This document shows, in pieces, positions 34,908-45,526 of a stretch of 64,000 nucleotides of DNA. This DNA comes from an uncultured Prochlorococcus sp. (lineage in GTDB: Bacteria > Cyanobacteriota > Cyanobacteriia > PCC-6307 > Cyanobiaceae), in NCBI GenBank assembly GCA_902565305.1, contig CACFEJ010000003.1, forward strand, positions 1 through 64,000, in the 5' to 3' direction. Within the stretch, counting starts at the first letter, position 1, and the number at the start of each line of letters is the position of its first letter. The position numbers and the translations under genes were made by a program. The notes beneath the pieces are model-generated. The model saw only the letters and a list, made by a program, of their open reading frames with translations, had not been told where the DNA came from and ran no database searches.

Positions 34908-37670
34908 TTGGACATGACAGAGATGAATGATCAATTATCCTTAGAGAATTATTCACCTTTTGAAGTAGAGAAAAAGTGGCAAGAAAAATGGCAAAGTCTA
35001 AGGGCGTTTAGTCCTAACCCTGAGGATGATGGGGAGCCTTTTTGTGTTGTTATTCCGCCACCAAATGTCACTGGATCTTTGCATATGGGGCATGCATTTA
35101 ATACTGCTTTGATAGATGTTGTGGTACGTTTTCAAAGACTTTTAGGCAAAAATGTTTTGTGCTTACCAGGAACTGATCATGCTTCAATAGCTGTTCAAAC
35201 TATTCTTGAAAAACAACTAAAAAGTGAAGGCAAAACAAGCGAAGATATTGGAAGAGATGAATTTCTTAAAAGAGCATGGAACTGGAAAGAACAAAGTGGT
35301 GGAAGAATAGTTTCTCAATTAAAAAGGATAGGATATTCAGTTGATTGGACTAGAGAAAGATTTACTCTTGATCAAAAATTAAATGAAGCAGTTATTGAGG
35401 CTTTTAATATTCTCTATAAAAAGAATTTAATTTATAGAGGCGAATATTTGGTTAATTGGTGTCCTGAATCTCAATCTGCCGTAAGTGATCTTGAAGTTGA
35501 AATGCAAGAAGTAAATGGTCATTTATGGCATTTTAAATACCCTTTAATTTCTGAAAGTGGTGAACAGTTAGATAAGTACCTAGAAGTTGCAACAACAAGA
35601 CCAGAAACTCTTTTGGGTGATACTGCTGTGGCAGTTAATCCTGATGATGATAGATATAAAGAATTTATTGGTGTCAAAGTAAAAGTCCCTTTTGTTGATA
35701 GAGAAATACCTATTATCGCCGATTCACATGTTGATAAAGATTTTGGTACTGGTTGTGTGAAGGTTACTCCAGCCCATGATCCAAATGATTTTGCAATAGG
35801 AAAAAGGCATAATTTAAAACAGATTAATGTAATGAACAAAGATGGAACTTTAAATATTAATGCAGGTATTTTTCAAAATTTAGATAGATATGAAGCTAGA
35901 AAGAAAATTATCAAAGAATTGGATAACTTAGGCCTTTTGACAAAGATAGAGGATTATAAACATACTGTTCCTTTTTCTGATAGAGGTAAGGTGCCAATAG
36001 AACCTTTATTGTCAACACAATGGTTTTTGAAAATGGATGATATATCAAAAGGATGTCTTAATGAAATTGATTCTAAAAAACCATCTTTTATTCCTTCACG
36101 CTGGGAGAAAGTTTATAAGGATTGGTTAGAGAATATTAATGATTGGTGTATTAGTCGCCAATTGTGGTGGGGGCACCAAATACCAGCATGGTATGTTTTA
36201 GATGACTCTCAAGACTCAATAGAACAAAATACTCCATATATAGTTGCAAGAAATGAAGAAGATGCGTTAATCGAAGCTAATAAAAAATTTGGATTAAATA
36301 TTAAATTGGTTCGTGATAAAGATGTTTTGGACACATGGTTTTCAAGTGGTTTATGGCCTTTCTCAACCCTTGGTTGGCCAAATACAAATGATCCGGATTT
36401 TAAAAAATGGTATCCAAATAATGTTCTTGTTACTGGATTCGATATTATTTTTTTCTGGGTGGCCAGAATGACAATGATGGGGAATACTTTTACGAATAAT
36501 ATTCCTTTTAAGGATGTTTATATTCATGGTCTAGTTCGAGATGAAAACAATAAAAAAATGAGTAAAAGTTCAGGTAATGGTATTGATCCAATACTATTAA
36601 TTGATAAATATGGTTCTGATGCTCTACGATTTGCTTTAATTAGAGAAGTTGCAGGCGCTGGACAAGATATCAGGCTTGATTTTGATAGAAAAAAAGATAC
36701 ATCTTCAACTGTTGAAGCTTCAAGAAATTTTGCGAATAAGTTGTGGAATGCAACTAAATTTGTGTTAATTAATAAAACTTTTAACAATAATTGTTCGCTT
36801 AATGAGAGTGATGAAACTTCTTTAGAGTTATGTGATAAGTGGATTTTATCAAAATTGAATCAGGTAAATACAAAAGTGGCTGCTTTGTTGAAAGAATATA
36901 AATTGGGTGAATCTGCAAAACTTTTATATGAATTTGCATGGAATGATTTTTGTGACTGGTACGTAGAATTTGCTAAACAAAGGTTTAATAATAAAGAGAC
37001 TAAAAATAGACAAATATCTGAAAAAGTTTTAATAAAAGTGCTGAATGATATTTTGGTAATGATTCATCCTTTTATGCCGCACATTACTGAGGAACTTTGG
37101 CATGTACTGCAAATAAAACCAGATAATGCATTATTATCTCTTCAAAAATGGCCAATTCATGAAAATAAATTTGTTGATAATAAGCTTGATAATTCCTTTC
37201 ATCAACTCTTTGAAATTATTAGGCTGATTAGAAATTTGAGAGCTGAATTAGGTCTTAAGCCATCAGAAAAAGGTCCTGTATATTTAATTTCAGACAATGA
37301 TGAATTGATTGATTTTTTAAAAACTTTAGTTGACGATATTCAAACCTTAACTAAATCTTCTGAAGTGTTTATTTTTAAAACTAATGCTGTTGATAAAAAA
37401 GAGTTTGCTAAATCTTTTTCTGGGATAATTAGTGATTTAGAGGTTTACTTACCTTTTCAGGATTTTGTAAATATAGATGCATTAAAGGAAAGGTTAACCA
37501 AGGATTTAACAAAGGTGACTATTGAATTAGAAAATTTAAATAAAAGATTATCTAATAAAAATTTCGTTGATAAGGCTCCAAAAGATATTGTTGATGAATG
37601 CAGATTTAAATTAAATGAGGGTTCGATACAAAAGGAGAGAATTACTAAAAAAATCGAACTTTTGAATTGA
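34908..37670 (+). CDS. valS: Valyl-tRNA synthetase
   Basis: PPPNVTGSLHMGHAFN (HIGH), KKMSKSSGNGIDP (KMSKS), C-terminal coiled coil. Confidence 0.98.
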   Translation: MDMTEMNDQLSLENYSPFEVEKKWQEKWQSLRAFSPNPEDDGEPFCVVIPPPNVTGSLHMGHAFNTALIDVVVRFQRLLGKNVLCLPGTDHASIAVQTILEKQLKSEGKTSEDIGRDEFLKRAWNWKEQSGGRIVSQLKRIGYSVDWTRERFTLDQKLNEAVIEAFNILYKKNLIYRGEYLVNWCPESQSAVSDLEVEMQEVNGHLWHFKYPLISESGEQLDKYLEVATTRPETLLGDTAVAVNPDDDRYKEFIGVKVKVPFVDREIPIIADSHVDKDFGTGCVKVTPAHDPNDFAIGKRHNLKQINVMNKDGTLNINAGIFQNLDRYEARKKIIKELDNLGLLTKIEDYKHTVPFSDRGKVPIEPLLSTQWFLKMDDISKGCLNEIDSKKPSFIPSRWEKVYKDWLENINDWCISRQLWWGHQIPAWYVLDDSQDSIEQNTPYIVARNEEDALIEANKKFGLNIKLVRDKDVLDTWFSSGLWPFSTLGWPNTNDPDFKKWYPNNVLVTGFDIIFFWVARMTMMGNTFTNNIPFKDVYIHGLVRDENNKKMSKSSGNGIDPILLIDKYGSDALRFALIREVAGAGQDIRLDFDRKKDTSSTVEASRNFANKLWNATKFVLINKTFNNNCSLNESDETSLELCDKWILSKLNQVNTKVAALLKEYKLGESAKLLYEFAWNDFCDWYVEFAKQRFNNKETKNRQISEKVLIKVLNDILVMIHPFMPHITEELWHVLQIKPDNALLSLQKWPIHENKFVDNKLDNSFHQLFEIIRLIRNLRAELGLKPSEKGPVYLISDNDELIDFLKTLVDDIQTLTKSSEVFIFKTNAVDKKEFAKSFSGIISDLEVYLPFQDFVNIDALKERLTKDLTKVTIELENLNKRLSNKNFVDKAPKDIVDECRFKLNEGSIQKERITKKIELLN

Positions 37671-38269
37671 GAATGAATATATTTCTTGAAAATATTTATA
37701 ATTTGTCATTTTTTTTTAATACTGGAATTGGGATATTTTCGTTTGTTTGCATTTATATTTTAATTGTTTTATTAATACTTCCAGCTTCTTGGTTATCTTT
37801 ATTATCAGGTTTTTTATATGGCTCATATTTAGGATCAATTATCGTTTTTTTCTCTGCTTCTATAGGAGCATTAGTTGCTTTTTTTGTATCAAAAAGTTTT
37901 TTTGCAAAAAAGCTAAAAAATCTTTTTAGCCGTTATCCAAAATTAAGTGTTATGGAAAAAGTAGTAGAAAAAGGCGGACTTAAATTAATTTTTTTAGCGA
38001 GATTATCGCCCATATTTCCCTTTAGTATTCTTAATTATTTTTATGGTTTGAATAATGTTAAATTTCGAGATTTCGCTTTTGGTCTTCTTGGAATCATTCC
38101 AGGAACTTTTCTTTATTGCTCAATAGGTAGTTTGGCAAAAAATATCCAGGAGCTAAAAAATGTGCAATCACCAAATAATTTATATATGACTATCGTTGGA
38201 ATTAGTTCAACTTTTTTAGTTGTATATTTATCAGCTAAATACTCTAGGGAATATTTTGAAAACTCCTAA
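37667..38269 (+). CDS. DedA/TVP38/TMEM64-family membrane protein
   Basis: GFLYGSYLGSIIVFFSASIGALVAFFVSK and LARLSPIFPFSILNYFYGL motifs; overlaps the valS stop by 4 bp. Confidence 0.82.
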   Translation: MRMNIFLENIYNLSFFFNTGIGIFSFVCIYILIVLLILPASWLSLLSGFLYGSYLGSIIVFFSASIGALVAFFVSKSFFAKKLKNLFSRYPKLSVMEKVVEKGGLKLIFLARLSPIFPFSILNYFYGLNNVKFRDFAFGLLGIIPGTFLYCSIGSLAKNIQELKNVQSPNNLYMTIVGISSTFLVVYLSAKYSREYFENS

Positions 38270-38273
38270 GAAT

Positions 38274-38426
38274 TTACTCTTTAATATTCCAATCTCTAAT
38301 TGATGCAATTAAGATAAACCACAAAAGCCTTAATTTACCTAGTAAAGTTTTGTTGGCTTCTAATTTTATATATTTTGCCTGTCCACAAGGTGTTTTTATG
38401 AAGTTGAAAATTGTTTTCTTCGTCAT
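38274..38426 (-). CDS. Candidate small protein, 50 aa (below the ORF-track length cutoff)
   Basis: Hand translation: MTKKTIFNFIKTPCGQAKYIKLEANKTLLGKLRLLWFILIASIRDWNIKE*. SD-like GAGAG lies 4 nt upstream of the ATG. Occupies otherwise empty sequence. Confidence 0.5.
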   Translation of the reverse strand: MTKKTIFNFIKTPCGQAKYIKLEANKTLLGKLRLLWFILIASIRDWNIKE

Positions 38427-38456
38427 AAGTCTCTCAAAAAGTCCTGATAATTATCC

Positions 38457-38558
38457 TTATATTTTATAGCCAAGTTTTTTATTTTTTTTATTTAAAAACC
38501 ACATTTTTCTCTGACTACTTTGTTGAATATTATTTTTAAATTTAAACTTTTTCTCCAT
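38457..38558 (-). CDS. Candidate small basic protein, 33 aa, overlapping the ligase 3' end
   Basis: Hand translation: MEKKFKFKNNIQQSSQRKMWFLNKKNKKLGYKI*. The ATG lies 17 nt inside the ligase ORF; AGAGGA (SD-like) is just upstream. Confidence 0.4.
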   Translation of the reverse strand: MEKKFKFKNNIQQSSQRKMWFLNKKNKKLGYKI

Positions 38559-39870
38559 CTTTAAATCCTCTAAAGCATTTAAATCTAGGAAACCTAAGAC
38601 TAAAAGCCACTGCATCCTTTGACTTGGTTTTTGCATCAGCTCTGATTTCTACAAGTTGACCAATGAGATGATTACGTTTTGACCAATATTCTTCACGTTG
38701 AATATCACTAAATCCGCTTCCGCAACTAAGACTATATTCATACCCATCATCTATTCCTTCTACCAGAATTGCTCCCAGTCTCCCTTTGTTGCGACCTGTG
38801 CCTTCCTCAACTGATACAACTTTTAAAGTGACTTCAATGAAAGGTTTTGCTTTTAACCAACTGTGTGTTCTTTTACATTCATACATCGCATCAGGATCTT
38901 TAATCATTACTCCTTCATAACCACCTTCCACAGCAGATTTATTCAGCTCTACAAATCTTTTTTGTCCTTCAATAGTGTCGAGATCTACATTTTCCCATTC
39001 AAGCGTTTGTATATGCTTTAGAAGCATAGAATGTTTTGCTACCCATTCTTTCACTAATAAACTTCTTTTTGTTTGACTAGTGTTCCATCTCCCTTTTTGA
39101 AAGTTTTCAAGGGGACATAAGTCAAATAGGTGGAGAACCGCGTCTTTGGTTTGTTTGCCATCTTTTCTATGTACCTGTTTCATTAAATCTTGAAAGTTAG
39201 CGCTCATCACTTCACCATCGAGTACTAAGTCATAAGGTGCTGGGTCTTCTTTTAAGGCTTTTTCTATTTCTGTGATAATATGACCAAAATTATGGAATTG
39301 TTTCCCATTACGAGAAAACATTTCTACTTTATTTTGTCTAATAATAGTTAAGACGCGTACACCATCTAATTTGATTTCAATTTGCTTTTTTCCTATCATT
39401 TTTTTTTCATGATTTGCACTGTCATGAGCTAAAGGACAAGAAAAAATAGGAATAGCATATTTTGGAAATTTCTTTGCTATCTTATTGATTGTTTTTTCAG
39501 ATACACCACATCTAAGATCTTTAATTAAAACTCGTCTATAAAATCCATTCCATTCTTCTTTTCTAGCAGATTCCATAGCCGTAAGAATTGCATCGCGAGC
39601 AGCGTGACCTGTAAGTTCTCTTTGAATAAGCTTGTTGGCTAATTTTCTAAAATCTTCCCATAAAAGATTTTGACTTTTTTCAGTCTCTTTCTCAGGGACA
39701 ATTTTTACTCCAAAAGTTACTAATGGATCAAGTGCCATACGTATCCCTTCAAAAAAATCATCTAGACCTTCTTCCATTGCTTCTGAGATGATTTTTTCTT
39801 TATCTAATCTACTTGGGTGTAATTCTAATTGATGTATTATTTCTTCTTTAAACAATTCTTTTTGCCTCAC
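38542..39870 (-). CDS. ATP-dependent DNA ligase, phage T4 gp30-like
   Basis: Nucleotidyltransferase motifs: I EIKLDGVR (KxDG), III LVLDGEVM, IIIa LHLFDLC, IV EGVMIKDPDA, V WLKAKPF. N-terminal RELTGHAARDAI and RRVLIKDLRCGVS resemble the T4 gp30 N-domain. Confidence 0.93.
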   Translation of the reverse strand: MRQKELFKEEIIHQLELHPSRLDKEKIISEAMEEGLDDFFEGIRMALDPLVTFGVKIVPEKETEKSQNLLWEDFRKLANKLIQRELTGHAARDAILTAMESARKEEWNGFYRRVLIKDLRCGVSEKTINKIAKKFPKYAIPIFSCPLAHDSANHEKKMIGKKQIEIKLDGVRVLTIIRQNKVEMFSRNGKQFHNFGHIITEIEKALKEDPAPYDLVLDGEVMSANFQDLMKQVHRKDGKQTKDAVLHLFDLCPLENFQKGRWNTSQTKRSLLVKEWVAKHSMLLKHIQTLEWENVDLDTIEGQKRFVELNKSAVEGGYEGVMIKDPDAMYECKRTHSWLKAKPFIEVTLKVVSVEEGTGRNKGRLGAILVEGIDDGYEYSLSCGSGFSDIQREEYWSKRNHLIGQLVEIRADAKTKSKDAVAFSLRFPRFKCFRGFKDGEKV

Positions 39871-39879
39871 AAGAAATTA

Positions 39880-40299
39880 TTAATTCACTTTTGCTATTCT
39901 GTCTATTTTCCAATCATTGTCAGTTTTTGCAAAAGTAAAATCTAATGGGAGCTCATCTTGTTTGTCTTCTGATTTTAAATTCAAAGTTATTATGATTTGA
40001 TCTTCTTGGACTCTAGGTCTTCCTGATTTTAAATTTCTGTATTTATTAAGGTTTAAACTAGCTAAAAATTTAAGAAAGTCTTGTCGTTTTACATGAGTTT
40101 TATAAGTTTTTGTAGTCAAACCATAAGCTGCATCAATTCTGCCAGCAGCTATTTGATCGAAAAACTTTCTTACTAATGGATTAATTCCTCTGGCGCTTAT
40201 AACTAATTTGACTGCATTAAAAGTCCAAAAAGAAACTAGTACAGCTCCGCCAACTAATAATGCTTTAATTCCGATATCTTTAACTAGTGTTGCATCCAT
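39880..40299 (-). CDS. Small N-terminally membrane-anchored protein (NTF2/DUF4864-like)
   Basis: One N-terminal TM (ALLVGGAVLVSFWTFNAVKLV), then a globular domain, FFDQIAAGRIDAAYGLT...DWKIDRIAKVN. Confidence 0.65.
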   Translation of the reverse strand: MDATLVKDIGIKALLVGGAVLVSFWTFNAVKLVISARGINPLVRKFFDQIAAGRIDAAYGLTTKTYKTHVKRQDFLKFLASLNLNKYRNLKSGRPRVQEDQIIITLNLKSEDKQDELPLDFTFAKTDNDWKIDRIAKVN

Positions 40300-40384: not shown

Positions 40385-40912
40385 ATGCCTGTAATTCCTC
40401 TTTTACCCTTATTTCATAGATTTAATACCCAATATTTTGAAAATTCTTTAACGGTTAATAATCAACCTTTAGTAAAAGTTAGATGGAGTGATAATAGATT
40501 AAAAACTACTGCTGGTTTTTATAAAAGAAAACGTATTAATGGTTTTATAGATTCTGAAATTATCTTATCGAAACCTATCTTGAGTAAATTATCCACTTGT
40601 GAAATAAACAGTACTTTATGTCATGAAATGATTCATGCATGGGTAGATAGGATATTAAATAAAAATGAGATACATGGTCCAAATTTCCTAGAAAAGATGC
40701 ATGAAATTAATTCAAAAGAGAAGAATTTTCAAATTGCTGTAAGGCACTCATTCCCTATAGAAAGGAGAGAATTAAAATATATAGGAACTTGTCAACATTG
40801 TGGTGAGAAATTTTTTTATAGAAAAAGAATAAAGAATATAGCCTGTAAAAAATGTTGTGTAAATTTCTTTAATGGATCGTGGAATAAAAAGTGTTTAATT
40901 TTGTTTGATTAG
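40385..40912 (+). CDS. SprT-like zinc metallopeptidase with C-terminal zinc ribbon
   Basis: LCHEMIHAWVDR (HExxH) and CQHCGEKFFYRKRIKNIACKKCC. Confidence 0.88.
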   Translation: MPVIPLLPLFHRFNTQYFENSLTVNNQPLVKVRWSDNRLKTTAGFYKRKRINGFIDSEIILSKPILSKLSTCEINSTLCHEMIHAWVDRILNKNEIHGPNFLEKMHEINSKEKNFQIAVRHSFPIERRELKYIGTCQHCGEKFFYRKRIKNIACKKCCVNFFNGSWNKKCLILFD

Positions 40913-40996: not shown

Positions 40997-41560
40997 ATGG
41001 ATTCAAGGAGAATTAAAAATCTTAGAAATAGTTTTGATAGAAATATTGTTGATAAACAAGTTGATAAAATTTTTGAAACTGGAAGACAATTCGTTGATGG
41101 AGTATCTGGTGCTAGGCCTGGTAAAAGAAGGAACTCAGATTTTCAAGGAATAACAAGTAAGAGTGTTAAAAAAGTAGGAAGATGGGTATCTCAAAAAGTG
41201 GATTTATTTTTTGATGAAGACAATGATGATTGGAATGATGAGAATTTTTACGATGATCAAAGCGATATTCAGACATTTTCCAGAGAATCAAATTCTTATG
41301 AATCTACTACACAGCATTCAAAAAGACCTTTAGAAGCAATATCTTTAAGGCAACCAAAAAATTTACAGACAACTGAGCAAAAAAAATTACCTTATGTGAA
41401 AGAGAGCAGGGACGAAGATTGGCCAGATGCAATGGATTTCAAAGTTGAAAGATGGCAAAGAGCTTCAGAAAATGAGAATAATACTTCGAGAGATCAATCA
41501 ATCCAACAAGTTCAATCAAAATCAAGAAATCTTCCCAGATCAAGAAGAAGAAGAGTATAG
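40997..41560 (+). CDS. Hypothetical low-complexity charged protein, 187 aa
   Basis: ORF with Asp/Glu/Asn-rich middle and RSRRRRV basic C-terminus. Confidence 0.7.
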   Translation: MDSRRIKNLRNSFDRNIVDKQVDKIFETGRQFVDGVSGARPGKRRNSDFQGITSKSVKKVGRWVSQKVDLFFDEDNDDWNDENFYDDQSDIQTFSRESNSYESTTQHSKRPLEAISLRQPKNLQTTEQKKLPYVKESRDEDWPDAMDFKVERWQRASENENNTSRDQSIQQVQSKSRNLPRSRRRRV

Positions 41561-42082
41561 TTTGGTAAATTCTTTAATTCCTGAATAACCCAGTAAAGTT
41601 TCTAAATTTGGATTGAAAACTTCCCTTATAATAGTTAAGGGTTTTTTGTCTCGAAAAAATCTGTAATTTCTTGACCAGAATGGACCTTTAAAGCAAAATT
41701 GATCTTCTAACCATTTTGCATTGACAAGTGAAATACGATCAATTTCTCTAAATAATTCTGATCTGTCTTGTGTCAAATTCTTCCAAATTGGCTCTTCTTT
41801 GGCTTTTAAATTTTCACTCACTTGATCTGCATTCCACCAACTTTCTGCCCATGCTAGGTTTTTATTATTGCTTTTGATCCATACTTGTCTTCTAATTAAA
41901 GGGCCTTTTAACTGATTCAATTCTGTAGGGCCTTCTTGAGTGGATAGAGGATCTAGTTGCATTGAAATTAATTTAATTTTCGTCTCTTGATTAGTTAAAA
42001 GCTGCAGATGTCTAGTTGGACTTCCATCCCCAAGCAGCATTAATTTCCATGGACCAGATATTTTTGGTAGTGAATTCTTCAC
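41540..42082 (-). CDS. Chorismate lyase-like protein
   Basis: WKLMLLGDGSPTRHLQLLTNQETKIKLISM and RRQVWIKS..LAWAESWWNA pattern of cyanobacterial chorismate--pyruvate lyase. Confidence 0.75.
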   Translation of the reverse strand: MKNSLPKISGPWKLMLLGDGSPTRHLQLLTNQETKIKLISMQLDPLSTQEGPTELNQLKGPLIRRQVWIKSNNKNLAWAESWWNADQVSENLKAKEEPIWKNLTQDRSELFREIDRISLVNAKWLEDQFCFKGPFWSRNYRFFRDKKPLTIIREVFNPNLETLLGYSGIKEFTKLYSSSS

Positions 42083-42163: not shown

Positions 42164-44131
42164 TTAAGATGATAACTTTTTTTCAGCAAAAATATTTGCC
42201 TTATCTTTTTTTATCTCTCTTATTTTTAGCCAAACGAGTAAAGCAGTTAAATCAGCTTTGCTAACTCCAGGAATTTTTGAAGCATCACCAAAATTTTTTG
42301 GCTTTATCTTATTCAAATTTTCTCTAGCTTCTAAAGATAATGTATCTATCTTTTCGTAATTTATTTCTTGAGGCAGAGATTTACAGCTTTGACGATTTAT
42401 TTGTTCAATGTTGTTTTTTTGTCTTTTAAGATAACCCTCGTATTTAATATCTATTTCAACACCTTCTTGTATTGAAGAAGCTATATTTTTTTCAGTCAAA
42501 TTATTTTTAATTAAATCTGCATAATGAAAGTTTGGCCTTTTTAAGAGTTCTTTCAAAGTTGTTGAGCCTTTGATTTTTGATCCCGTGGCTAATTCTAGTT
42601 TTTTTGATATTTCATCCGTGTTTTTTAAACGAGTGTTATTTAATCTTAATTTCTCTTCTTCAAGAAGTTTCATTTTTTCTTGATAAACCGACCATCTTTT
42701 CTCATCAATTAGCCCTATTTCATAACCTAATGGGGTTAATCGCCTATCTGCATTATCTCCTCTAAGGGTCAACCTGTATTCACTCCTACTAGTAAGAACT
42801 CTATATGGTTCTTTGAGATCTTTGGTAATTAAATCATTGATCATTGTTCCTATATAGCTGCTTTCTCTAGTGAAGATTATTGGATCTTTTTTGTTTAGTT
42901 TTCTTGTCGCATTGACTCCGGCTACTAATCCTTGTGCTGCTGCTTCTTCATAACCAGTAGTTCCATTAATTTGTCCAGCGCTAAATAAATATTCAATTTC
43001 TTTCGTTTCGAGTGATGTTTGGAGTTGTGTTGCAGGTATGTAGTCATACTCGACAGCATAAGCTGGTCGCAACATTTTACATTCATTTAATCCAGGTAAG
43101 GTTCTTAGAAGTTCTAATTGAATACTTTCAGGTAAACCTGTAGAGAATCCTTGAACATATATTTCAGGGGTATTAATTCCTTCTGGTTCTAAGAAAATTT
43201 GATGTGATTCTTTATCAGCAAATTTAACGATTTTATCTTCAATTGATGGACAATATCTTGGTCCCTTACTATCAATAAAACCGCCGTAAATGGGAGTTAA
43301 ATGTAAATTGTCTCGAATTAGTTTATGTGTTTTAGTAGTTGTTCTTGTGATATGACAACTAACTTGGGGCATATTATTTTTGATATCTGGATCAAACGAA
43401 AAATATTTATCTGCTGCAGTACTTGGTTGAATATCTAATTCATCAAAAATGATACTTCTTTTATCAACTCTTGCTGGAGTTCCTGTTTTTAAACGTTCTG
43501 TTTTGATACCAATTTCGTGTAAATTTTGAGTAAGACCTTTTGCTGCTTGTTCGCCCGATCTACCAGCTGACATTGATTTATTTCCTATCCATATTCTTCC
43601 TTCTAAGAACGTACCAGCTGTGATGATAACTGATCTTGCTGAATAATAACTACCAAAGAAAGTCTTTACACCCTTTATTCTTTTTTTTACGATTTTTTTT
43701 GAGTTCAATCCAATTTCTTCAGTTTTTCCGATATCTAGTTCAGTAATCATTGCTTCTTTTAATGATAAATTATCTGTATTTTGTAGTATTTCAATCATCT
43801 TTTTTGAGTATTCTCTTTTATCTGTCTGAGCTCTTAATGCCCATACAGCTGGACCTCTACTTGCATTTAATATTCTTTTTTGTATAGCTGTTTCATCAGC
43901 TAATTTACCAATAATTCCACCTAATGCATCAACTTCATGTACCAACTGACTTTTTGCCGGGCCGCCAACAGCAGGGTTGCAAGGTTGCCAGGCAATCCTA
44001 TCTAAATTGATTGTAAATAAGGCTGTAGAAAATCCTAATTTTGCTGTTGTTATAGCGGCCTCGCATCCTGCATGTCCTCCACCAATAATGATGACATCAA
44101 AAGATTCATTTGTTGAGTGATGATCTTGCAT
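42164..44131 (-). CDS. mnmG: tRNA uridine-5-carboxymethylaminomethyl modification enzyme
   Basis: [49 protein letters not shown]. Confidence 0.97.
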
Positions 44132-44143
44132 TTTAGGATCGAT

Positions 44144-45526
44144 TTAATTAGCTAAATTCCTAAATCTCGTAAATTGAGGTTCAAATAATAATTTAACAGT
44201 TCCTACGGGTCCATTTCTATGTTTAGTGACAATGATTTCTGTAATTCCTCTATCTTCAGTCTCTGGATTATAGTATTCGTCTCTATAAATCATTAATACT
44301 AAATCTGCGTCTTGTTCAATAGATCCTGATTCTCTTAAATCGCTTAACATTGGTCTTTTATTTGTCCTAGACTCTACCCCTCTACTAAGCTGAGATAAAG
44401 CTACTACTGGTACTTTCAATTCTCTGGCCATGCTTTTAAGACCTCTTGTTATTCGTGAAAGTTCTTGCACTCTATTATCAGGGGTTGATCCTTCCATCAA
44501 CTGGAGGTAATCAATCACAATTAATCCAAGTTCTTTTTTTTGTTCAGCTATTAATCTTCTGCACAGAGATCTCATCTCTAAAACACTTAAGTTCGGCTTG
44601 TCATCTATAAATATTGGTAATTGACCTAATGAATTGATACCTTCTCCGAGTAATGGCCATTCATCTTGCTGTAATCTTCCTGTTCTTAGCCTGCCACTCT
44701 CGATTCCAACTTCCATAGAGAGCAATCTATATGTCAATTGTTCTTTACTCATTTCAAGGCTAAATACACAAACAGGTAAATCTTGCGATTGTGCAACATT
44801 TTTTGCCAGATTAAGAACTATTGAAGTTTTTCCCATTGAAGGTCTTCCAGCAACAATTATTAAATCACTTCTTTGAAAACCTTGAGTCATCGCATCAAGG
44901 TCGTAGAAATTTACTGGAATACCAGCTACTGAAGTACCTAATGATCTTGACTCTATTTCATTGAAAGTACTTGTAAGGATTTCAGCTGCTTGAGTCAGGC
45001 CTTTTGAAGGTTTTTCTTGGCTGATTTCAAATATTTTTTGCTCTGCTTTATCTAGAACTTCATTAGTATCTTGAGTTTGATCAAAACCTAGTTGAACCAC
45101 TTCATTCCCAGATCTGATAAGTTGCCTTCTCATGAATTTGTCGTTAATTAAATTAGCAACTTGTTCTATGGAAGCTGTAGAGGAAACATTTTCAACAAGT
45201 TCTACCAGTTTGCTGTTTCCTCCAATTTTTTCTAGTGATCCATTATCTGCTAACCAAGCACTCATTGACGTTAAATCAGTTGGTTTACCCTGGGTATGCA
45301 ACATTAATGCTGTTCTATAAATCTCTTGGTGGGCATTTATATAAAAAGCTTCAGGTTTAATTAAGTCTGCAATTCTTCCGATCGCGTCTGGATCAAGAAG
45401 TATGCCCCCAAGAACAGCTTCCTCTGCTTGAACGTTTTGAGGAGGTACTAATCCAGAGTTTTCACTATTAAAATCCTTTTTAAAATTTTTATTTTGCCCA
45501 TTATTTGGAAAAGGTACGGAAACCAT
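44144..45526 (-). CDS. dnaB: Replicative DNA helicase
   Basis: PPQNVQAEEAVLGGILLDP, IVAGRPSMGKTSIVLNLA, LIVIDYLQLM. No intein. Confidence 0.97.
   Translation of the reverse strand: MVSVPFPNNGQNKNFKKDFNSENSGLVPPQNVQAEEAVLGGILLDPDAIGRIADLIKPEAFYINAHQEIYRTALMLHTQGKPTDLTSMSAWLADNGSLEKIGGNSKLVELVENVSSTASIEQVANLINDKFMRRQLIRSGNEVVQLGFDQTQDTNEVLDKAEQKIFEISQEKPSKGLTQAAEILTSTFNEIESRSLGTSVAGIPVNFYDLDAMTQGFQRSDLIIVAGRPSMGKTSIVLNLAKNVAQSQDLPVCVFSLEMSKEQLTYRLLSMEVGIESGRLRTGRLQQDEWPLLGEGINSLGQLPIFIDDKPNLSVLEMRSLCRRLIAEQKKELGLIVIDYLQLMEGSTPDNRVQELSRITRGLKSMARELKVPVVALSQLSRGVESRTNKRPMLSDLRESGSIEQDADLVLMIYRDEYYNPETEDRGITEIIVTKHRNGPVGTVKLLFEPQFTRFRNLAN

Follow-up and report, generated by a model that had tools for sequence, protein, structure and literature searches.

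A phage-type ATP-dependent DNA ligase at the ligA locus of Prochlorococcus

The ligase gene and its relatives

The window, by which we mean the whole 64,000-nucleotide stretch of Prochlorococcus DNA that was analysed, carries a T4/SPO1-type ATP-dependent DNA ligase, Pmar-Lig, among bacterial housekeeping genes (Table 1). Its reading frame has a GTG start and runs uninterrupted for 442 codons. The encoded protein has a DNA-binding N-domain, a nucleotidyltransferase domain and an OB domain, and the catalytic motifs EIKLDGVR, FSRNG, LVLDGEVM, LHLFDLC, EGVMIK and WLKAKPF begin at residues 165, 185, 215, 246, 319 and 338, respectively, with the motif I lysine at residue 167. A reading of this DNA made from sequence only had described an intact ligase like T4 gp30, and this description was borne out: every motif it quoted is present, and phrog_114, the PHROG family of phage ATP-dependent ligases, matches residues 10–439 (E=1.4e-88). 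The resemblance that it saw in the N-domain, where the segment starting RELTGHAARD begins at residue 84, holds as well, as the protein aligns with gp30 of Vibrio phage nt-1 over residues 10–438.

Table 1. Features of the ligase locus in the window
Feature	Position	Strand	Evidence
valS, conserved flank, source of the species tree	34908..37670	+	region alignment, tree
VTT-domain membrane protein, conserved neighbour 3' of the slot	37667..38269	+	Pfam, region alignment
Intergenic, 272 bp, downstream of the ligase	38270..38541	.	tblastn for a ligA remnant
Pmar-Lig, T4/SPO1-type ATP-dependent DNA ligase, 442 aa	38542..39870	-	ORF, Pfam, PHROG, PDB 6RAU homologue (PMC6698739)
hyp139, conserved, directly upstream of the ligase slot, same place with ligA or Pmar-Lig	39880..40299	-	region comparison
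SprT-like protein, conserved flank	40385..40912	+	Pfam, region alignment
hyp187, conserved flank	40997..41560	+	region alignment
180-aa conserved flank protein, cpeT-like (working label)	41540..42082	-	region alignment
mnmG (gidA), conserved flank	42164..44131	-	region alignment
dnaB replicative helicase, conserved flank	44144..45526	-	region alignment

In Pfam the protein matched DNA_ligase_A_M (E=9.4e-22) and DNA_ligase_OB_2 (E=1.3e-10), with no match to DNA_ligase_A_N. Assignment to the T4/SPO1 type follows from the presence of nucleotidyltransferase motifs I, III, IV and V together with the OB domain, from an N-domain that aligns with the solved Pmar-Lig (residues 2–442) and with the nt-1 enzyme, and from a whole-protein profile match combined with a tree position among phage ligases. 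None of the LigA domains (PF01653, the Ia domain PF22745, the OB domain PF03120, zinc finger, HhH or BRCT) was found in it by Pfam. It is not a Lig E, as an N-domain of ~150 residues lies ahead of the catalytic core, and all of its NCBIfam matches to LigB, LigC or LigD fell far under the cut-off (for example, 81.8 against 227.75 bits). Ku and LigD domains, which had been reported as not visible nearby, were indeed not seen among the neighbours scanned or aligned.

The enzyme itself is already known and structurally solved. Prochlorococcus marinus Pmar-Lig (PDB 6RAU, 6RAS, 6RAR and 6RCE; PMC6698739) matched in phmmer at E ~1e-288, far beyond chance, with 6RAU (E=1e-288) covering residues 2–442; the two proteins are near-identical at nearly every residue and share domain plan and motifs. 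Nick sealing by Pmar-Lig was reported as comparable to that of T4 ligase, blunt ends were not joined, and it was suggested that the enzyme may represent an intermediate in the evolution of Lig E (PMC6698739). The same paper regards it as an extra enzyme in a genome that has its own replicative NAD+ ligase. T4 gp30 and SPO1 gp32.95 (phrog_114) belong to the same family and have the same length, and ligases of both the SPO1 and the T4 (Vibrio phage nt-1) groups align over nearly the whole protein. Unlike these phage proteins, the window ligase is a chromosomal housekeeping gene, and the gp45-binding loop of the T4 enzyme is reported to be absent in Pmar-Lig (PMC6698739). No conserved sliding-clamp motif was found in Pmar-Lig; an N-terminal QKELF was considered and rejected, as it is not conserved in G160, G262, G444 and G459.

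The gene is kept under purifying selection, as is valS: dN/dS against the window was 0.06–0.17 for Pmar-Lig and 0.065–0.16 for valS. Its GC3 (21.0) lies within the range of the neighbours (16.4–22.1), so the transferred gene has ameliorated and base composition no longer shows the transfer.

Exchange of LigA and Pmar-Lig in one chromosomal slot

LigA is the DNA-joining enzyme of nearly all bacteria. It serves as a target for antibacterials and is regarded as a universal and essential component of replication in bacteria; one review tabulates its distribution as "all bacteria" (PMC3290774). Among the cyanobacteria sampled this very nearly holds outside the genus of the window. In the other genera of the family PF01653 detected full-length LigA in 137 of 138 genomes, in frames of mostly 690–750 aa scoring mostly 250–324 bits, and in a set of 232 cyanobacterial genomes it matched 219 of the 220 outside the genus (four only partially), with no full-length LigA in the 12 members of the genus. 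In our own genome and 61 genomes sampled from the genus, the same profile gave only weak matches to open frames of ~250 aa. Searching 88 genomes of the genus, several of them single contigs and all at least 90% complete apart from our own small assembly, with a full-length LigA from a sister genus recovered full-length LigA in three (G446, G433 and G432); it is absent from the other 85. The sequence-only reading had proposed to look for ligA elsewhere in the genome and, taking LigA as the resident replicative enzyme, had placed the viral-type ligase beside it in an accessory role, possibly for repair. This part of the proposal is not supported.

The locus itself is shared. All regions aligned have the gene order dnaB–mnmG–180-aa protein–hyp187–SprT–hyp139–[ligase]–VTT–valS, the region ends varying by genome. 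The ligase slot is filled by LigA in G446, G433, G432 and five other genera (G100, G041, G026, G300 and G319), and by Pmar-Lig in the window, G160, G262, G090, G444, G459 and the complete genome G434. In all genomes compared the two ligases lie on the same strand, and with either one the ligase start is found close behind hyp139. Pmar-Lig and bacterial LigA thus have slot and strand in common and, by inference, would share a cellular role, whereas cofactor and fold plan differ: LigA has ~690 aa with Ia, OB, zinc-finger, HhH and BRCT domains, and Pmar-Lig has none of the LigA-specific domains. The intergenic gap behind the ligase is 272 bp in the window vs 138–170 bp in ligA-bearing relatives. 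The possibility that it holds a remnant of ligA was rejected, as three LigA proteins gave chance-level tblastn matches only (best E 0.22). The upstream neighbour hyp139 has no Pfam match; it is 69–73% identical across genera and its dN/dS is mostly 0–0.07, tighter than in the other neighbours compared.

Presence and absence across the genus, a comparison that had been proposed for this gene, gave Pmar-Lig in 81 of the 88 genomes, at 78–98% identity outside the window's own genome and with one copy ending at residue 176. Three of the seven genomes without it are the carriers of LigA. The other four (G273, G451, G452 and G474) were considered as exceptions having neither ligase and rejected as assembly gaps at the locus: hyp139 is missing in all four and valS in three, and in G474 a contig end cuts valS. 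No genome among the 88 has both ligases, and none has the locus assembled with neither. Pmar-Lig is the only ligase that is never missing from genomes with an assembled locus and no LigA. Same locus, same orientation and mutual exclusion are thus all observed, as expected of non-orthologous displacement in place.

Could LigA be present but missed through assembly gaps or divergence, with Pmar-Lig merely inserted beside it? Many of the genomes are draft single-cell assemblies and our own is only 69.6% complete, which leaves some room for this. However, LigA is also absent from complete one-contig genomes; the slot that in all relatives contains ligA has been assembled, with Pmar-Lig in it; and the LigA query scores 500–740 bits in the sister lineage (G446, G433 and G432). 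We therefore consider an overlooked LigA extremely unlikely. With Pmar-Lig in the slot of ligA and LigA absent from 85 of 88 genomes, the event was a replacement and not an addition. These genomes contradict the description of Pmar-Lig as an extra ligase next to a replicative NAD+-dependent one (PMC6698739), and that description in turn is the published statement that speaks against displacement. In G432 the ligA frame (L210:4467-6536) is split into three ORFs, either through assembly errors or because ligA is decaying in a lineage outside the Pmar-Lig clade.

Phage affinity and a single change of state

In a valS tree the genomes with Pmar-Lig form one clade (support 99/98), with G446, G433 and G432 as the sister group (97/94); one change of state therefore suffices. 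In the genomes sampled, Pmar-Lig is confined to this one clade and the whole clade carries it. A vertically inherited ligase universal in cyanobacteria, the outcome that would have spoken against horizontal acquisition, is not what is seen. The sequence-only reading was thus right about acquisition of the ligase in a streamlined genome, but the gene is no curiosity of a single genome and an accessory role is not supported.

All Prochlorococcus copies fall into a single clade of the ligase tree (100/100). In a quick tree rooted with cultured-phage ligases, this clade lies deep within ligases of uncultured phages, and in a more careful tree of the inner part it groups with marine phage loci such as L022–L033, L041 and L054 (95/91, within a 100/99 clade); deep in the ligase tree some branches are long, which weakens the outermost nodes only. 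The closest phage ligases, from uncultured large phages of marine, freshwater and other habitats in IMG/VR (for example, L022, L023, L028, L041, L047 and L096), are 67–75% identical to Pmar-Lig over the full length, and cultured phages, among those listed, reach at most ~37%. Their genes adjoin phage structural and nucleotide-metabolism genes, with neighbours matching phage families such as virion structural and tail-fibre proteins, 2OG-Fe(II) oxygenase and RNA ligase, whereas the window ligase lies in a bacterial housekeeping cluster. Loci L022–L101 and L386–L465 of IMG/VR make up a large group of uncultured phages whose ligase is mostly 67–75% identical to Pmar-Lig. No other cellular lineage with Pmar-Lig appeared among the best 80 contig matches, which were all of Prochlorococcus type.

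Since the Prochlorococcus clade is nested within phage ligases, transfer from phage to host is the best supported direction. Phages often carry host genes, and the Prochlorococcus copies do form one clade, as they might if phages had taken the ligase from Prochlorococcus. When the tree is rooted with distant phage ligases, however, Prochlorococcus is a shallow branch among ligases of marine and freshwater phages that are far more diverse, and transfer in this reverse direction is very improbable. The viral type, horizontal acquisition and retention proposed for the gene from its sequence are supported by the tree and by its dN/dS (~0.06–0.17).

Pmar-Lig as a candidate replicative ligase

The observations made here are affinity to phage ligases, a slot shared with ligA and mutual exclusion with it, a valS tree that needs only one switch, and purifying selection. 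Displacement of ligA in place by a phage ligase is strongly supported. Our reading, to which we give a probability of about 0.85, is that one transfer of a phage ligase displaced ligA in place in the ancestor of most of the genus, and that its product now serves as the replicative nick-sealing ligase. Pmar-Lig would then seal Okazaki fragments as well as repair nicks. To our knowledge every bacterium must seal Okazaki fragments, and Pmar-Lig is therefore the strongest candidate, because complete genomes having neither LigB nor LigA (G434, a single contig, G281, G001, G429 and G430) have it as their sole recognised ATP-dependent ligase. By analogy with the solved homologue, lysine 167 of motif I would take AMP from ATP, the AMP would move to the 5' phosphate at the nick, and attack by the 3' OH would join the strands; sealing would need neither the NAD+-binding domain of LigA nor its zinc finger, HhH and BRCT. 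The lack of a conserved clamp motif and the reported absence of the gp45-binding loop (PMC6698739) count against a replicative role. So might the ~250-aa LigA-like proteins and the LigB-type ligase, each found in most genomes, if their activities were combined.

If the LigB-type ATP-dependent ligase were replicative, Pmar-Lig would be left with accessory repair only. LigB is intact and present in most genomes of the genus, including our own, and has 546–550 aa, with domains DNA_ligase_A_N, A_M and A_C in the copy L001. However, its distribution is patchy: it is missing from genomes that are 99–100% complete (the five LigB-free genomes named above, G263 and G243). Nor is it tied to the loss of LigA, being absent in the LigA-bearing G446 and found alongside LigA in G139, G126, G432 and G433. 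A replicative LigB thus seems very unlikely. The LigB-type ligase of our own genome is encoded at C15:4830-5432 (L001:1111-2751), preceded by an ORF of 185 aa.

Another pertinent question is whether the ~250-aa LigA-like proteins amount to a minimal or split NAD+-dependent ligase in the style of the two-subunit enzyme of phage T5. They are found in nearly all genomes of the genus, keep adenylation motifs I, III, IV and V intact, and are related to phage NAD+ ligases including subunit A of the T5 type. Yet they stop at motif V, without OB, zinc-finger, HhH or BRCT domains, and in the 85 genomes the LigA query turned up no partner carrying an OB, zinc-finger or HhH domain. In pairwise comparison this query recognised both T5-like subunits, A and B, and a T5-like split ligase would therefore probably have been detected. 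Full-length LigA and the small proteins also occur together in G432, G433, G446 and other genera, and the latter therefore did not arise as a replacement for LigA. A split NAD+ ligase is accordingly judged very improbable. Examples, often several per genome, are L113:1441-2190, L467:678-1427 and L474:1076-1831; the copy in our own genome (G000:C10:24082-24261, L003) is degenerate at motif IV.

We return to the preferred reading, replacement of LigA by Pmar-Lig. It is probable that most of the genus has lost LigA and replicates its chromosome with a single phage-derived ATP-dependent ligase, through one precise event at the ligA slot that can be dated on the species tree. Prochlorococcus are free-living and the ocean's commonest photosynthetic cells. 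If the reading is true, a core replication gene has been taken over in place by a viral one, in an organism that is among the most abundant on Earth. A clade of an ecologically dominant free-living bacterium that has a phage enzyme for LigA would indicate that in nature a replicative ligase can be exchanged together with its cofactor. Pmar-Lig, a well-studied crystallographic model enzyme, was described as an extra ligase (PMC6698739), whereas its counterpart in the window replaces LigA in its own locus, and that premise is corrected. What favoured the swap, be it economy of NAD+ or zinc, gene size (1.3 kb vs 2.1 kb) or phage–host conflict, and how a ligase without the extra domains of LigA enters the replisome, are testable questions, and the sister lineages with intact LigA (G433 and G446) represent the state before the swap.

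We found no paper on the loss or replacement of LigA in Prochlorococcus in the open-access literature; a report in a subscription journal is possible. The MED4 gene PMM1679 may be Pmar-Lig, judging by its map position. It is annotated "ligB, ATP-dependent DNA ligase" (PMC7368042). Early loss of a different ATP-dependent ligase has been reported (PMC3940434), and LLI-specific "DNA ligase" genes of ~600–690 bp (PMC6102989) could, from their length, be the small LigA-like genes. Further ATP-dependent ligases were seen in single strains. At L468:1395-3661 (contig C2), G452 has a second, small one of 290 aa with an OB_2 domain together with a directly adjoining protein that apparently has TPR-like repeats and a BRCT-like C-terminus. 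Two more strain-specific ligases, one with a WGR domain and one of 455 aa, are found at L470:1099-2193 (G110) and L469:953-2320 (G459), which suggests repeated gain of ligases in the genus.
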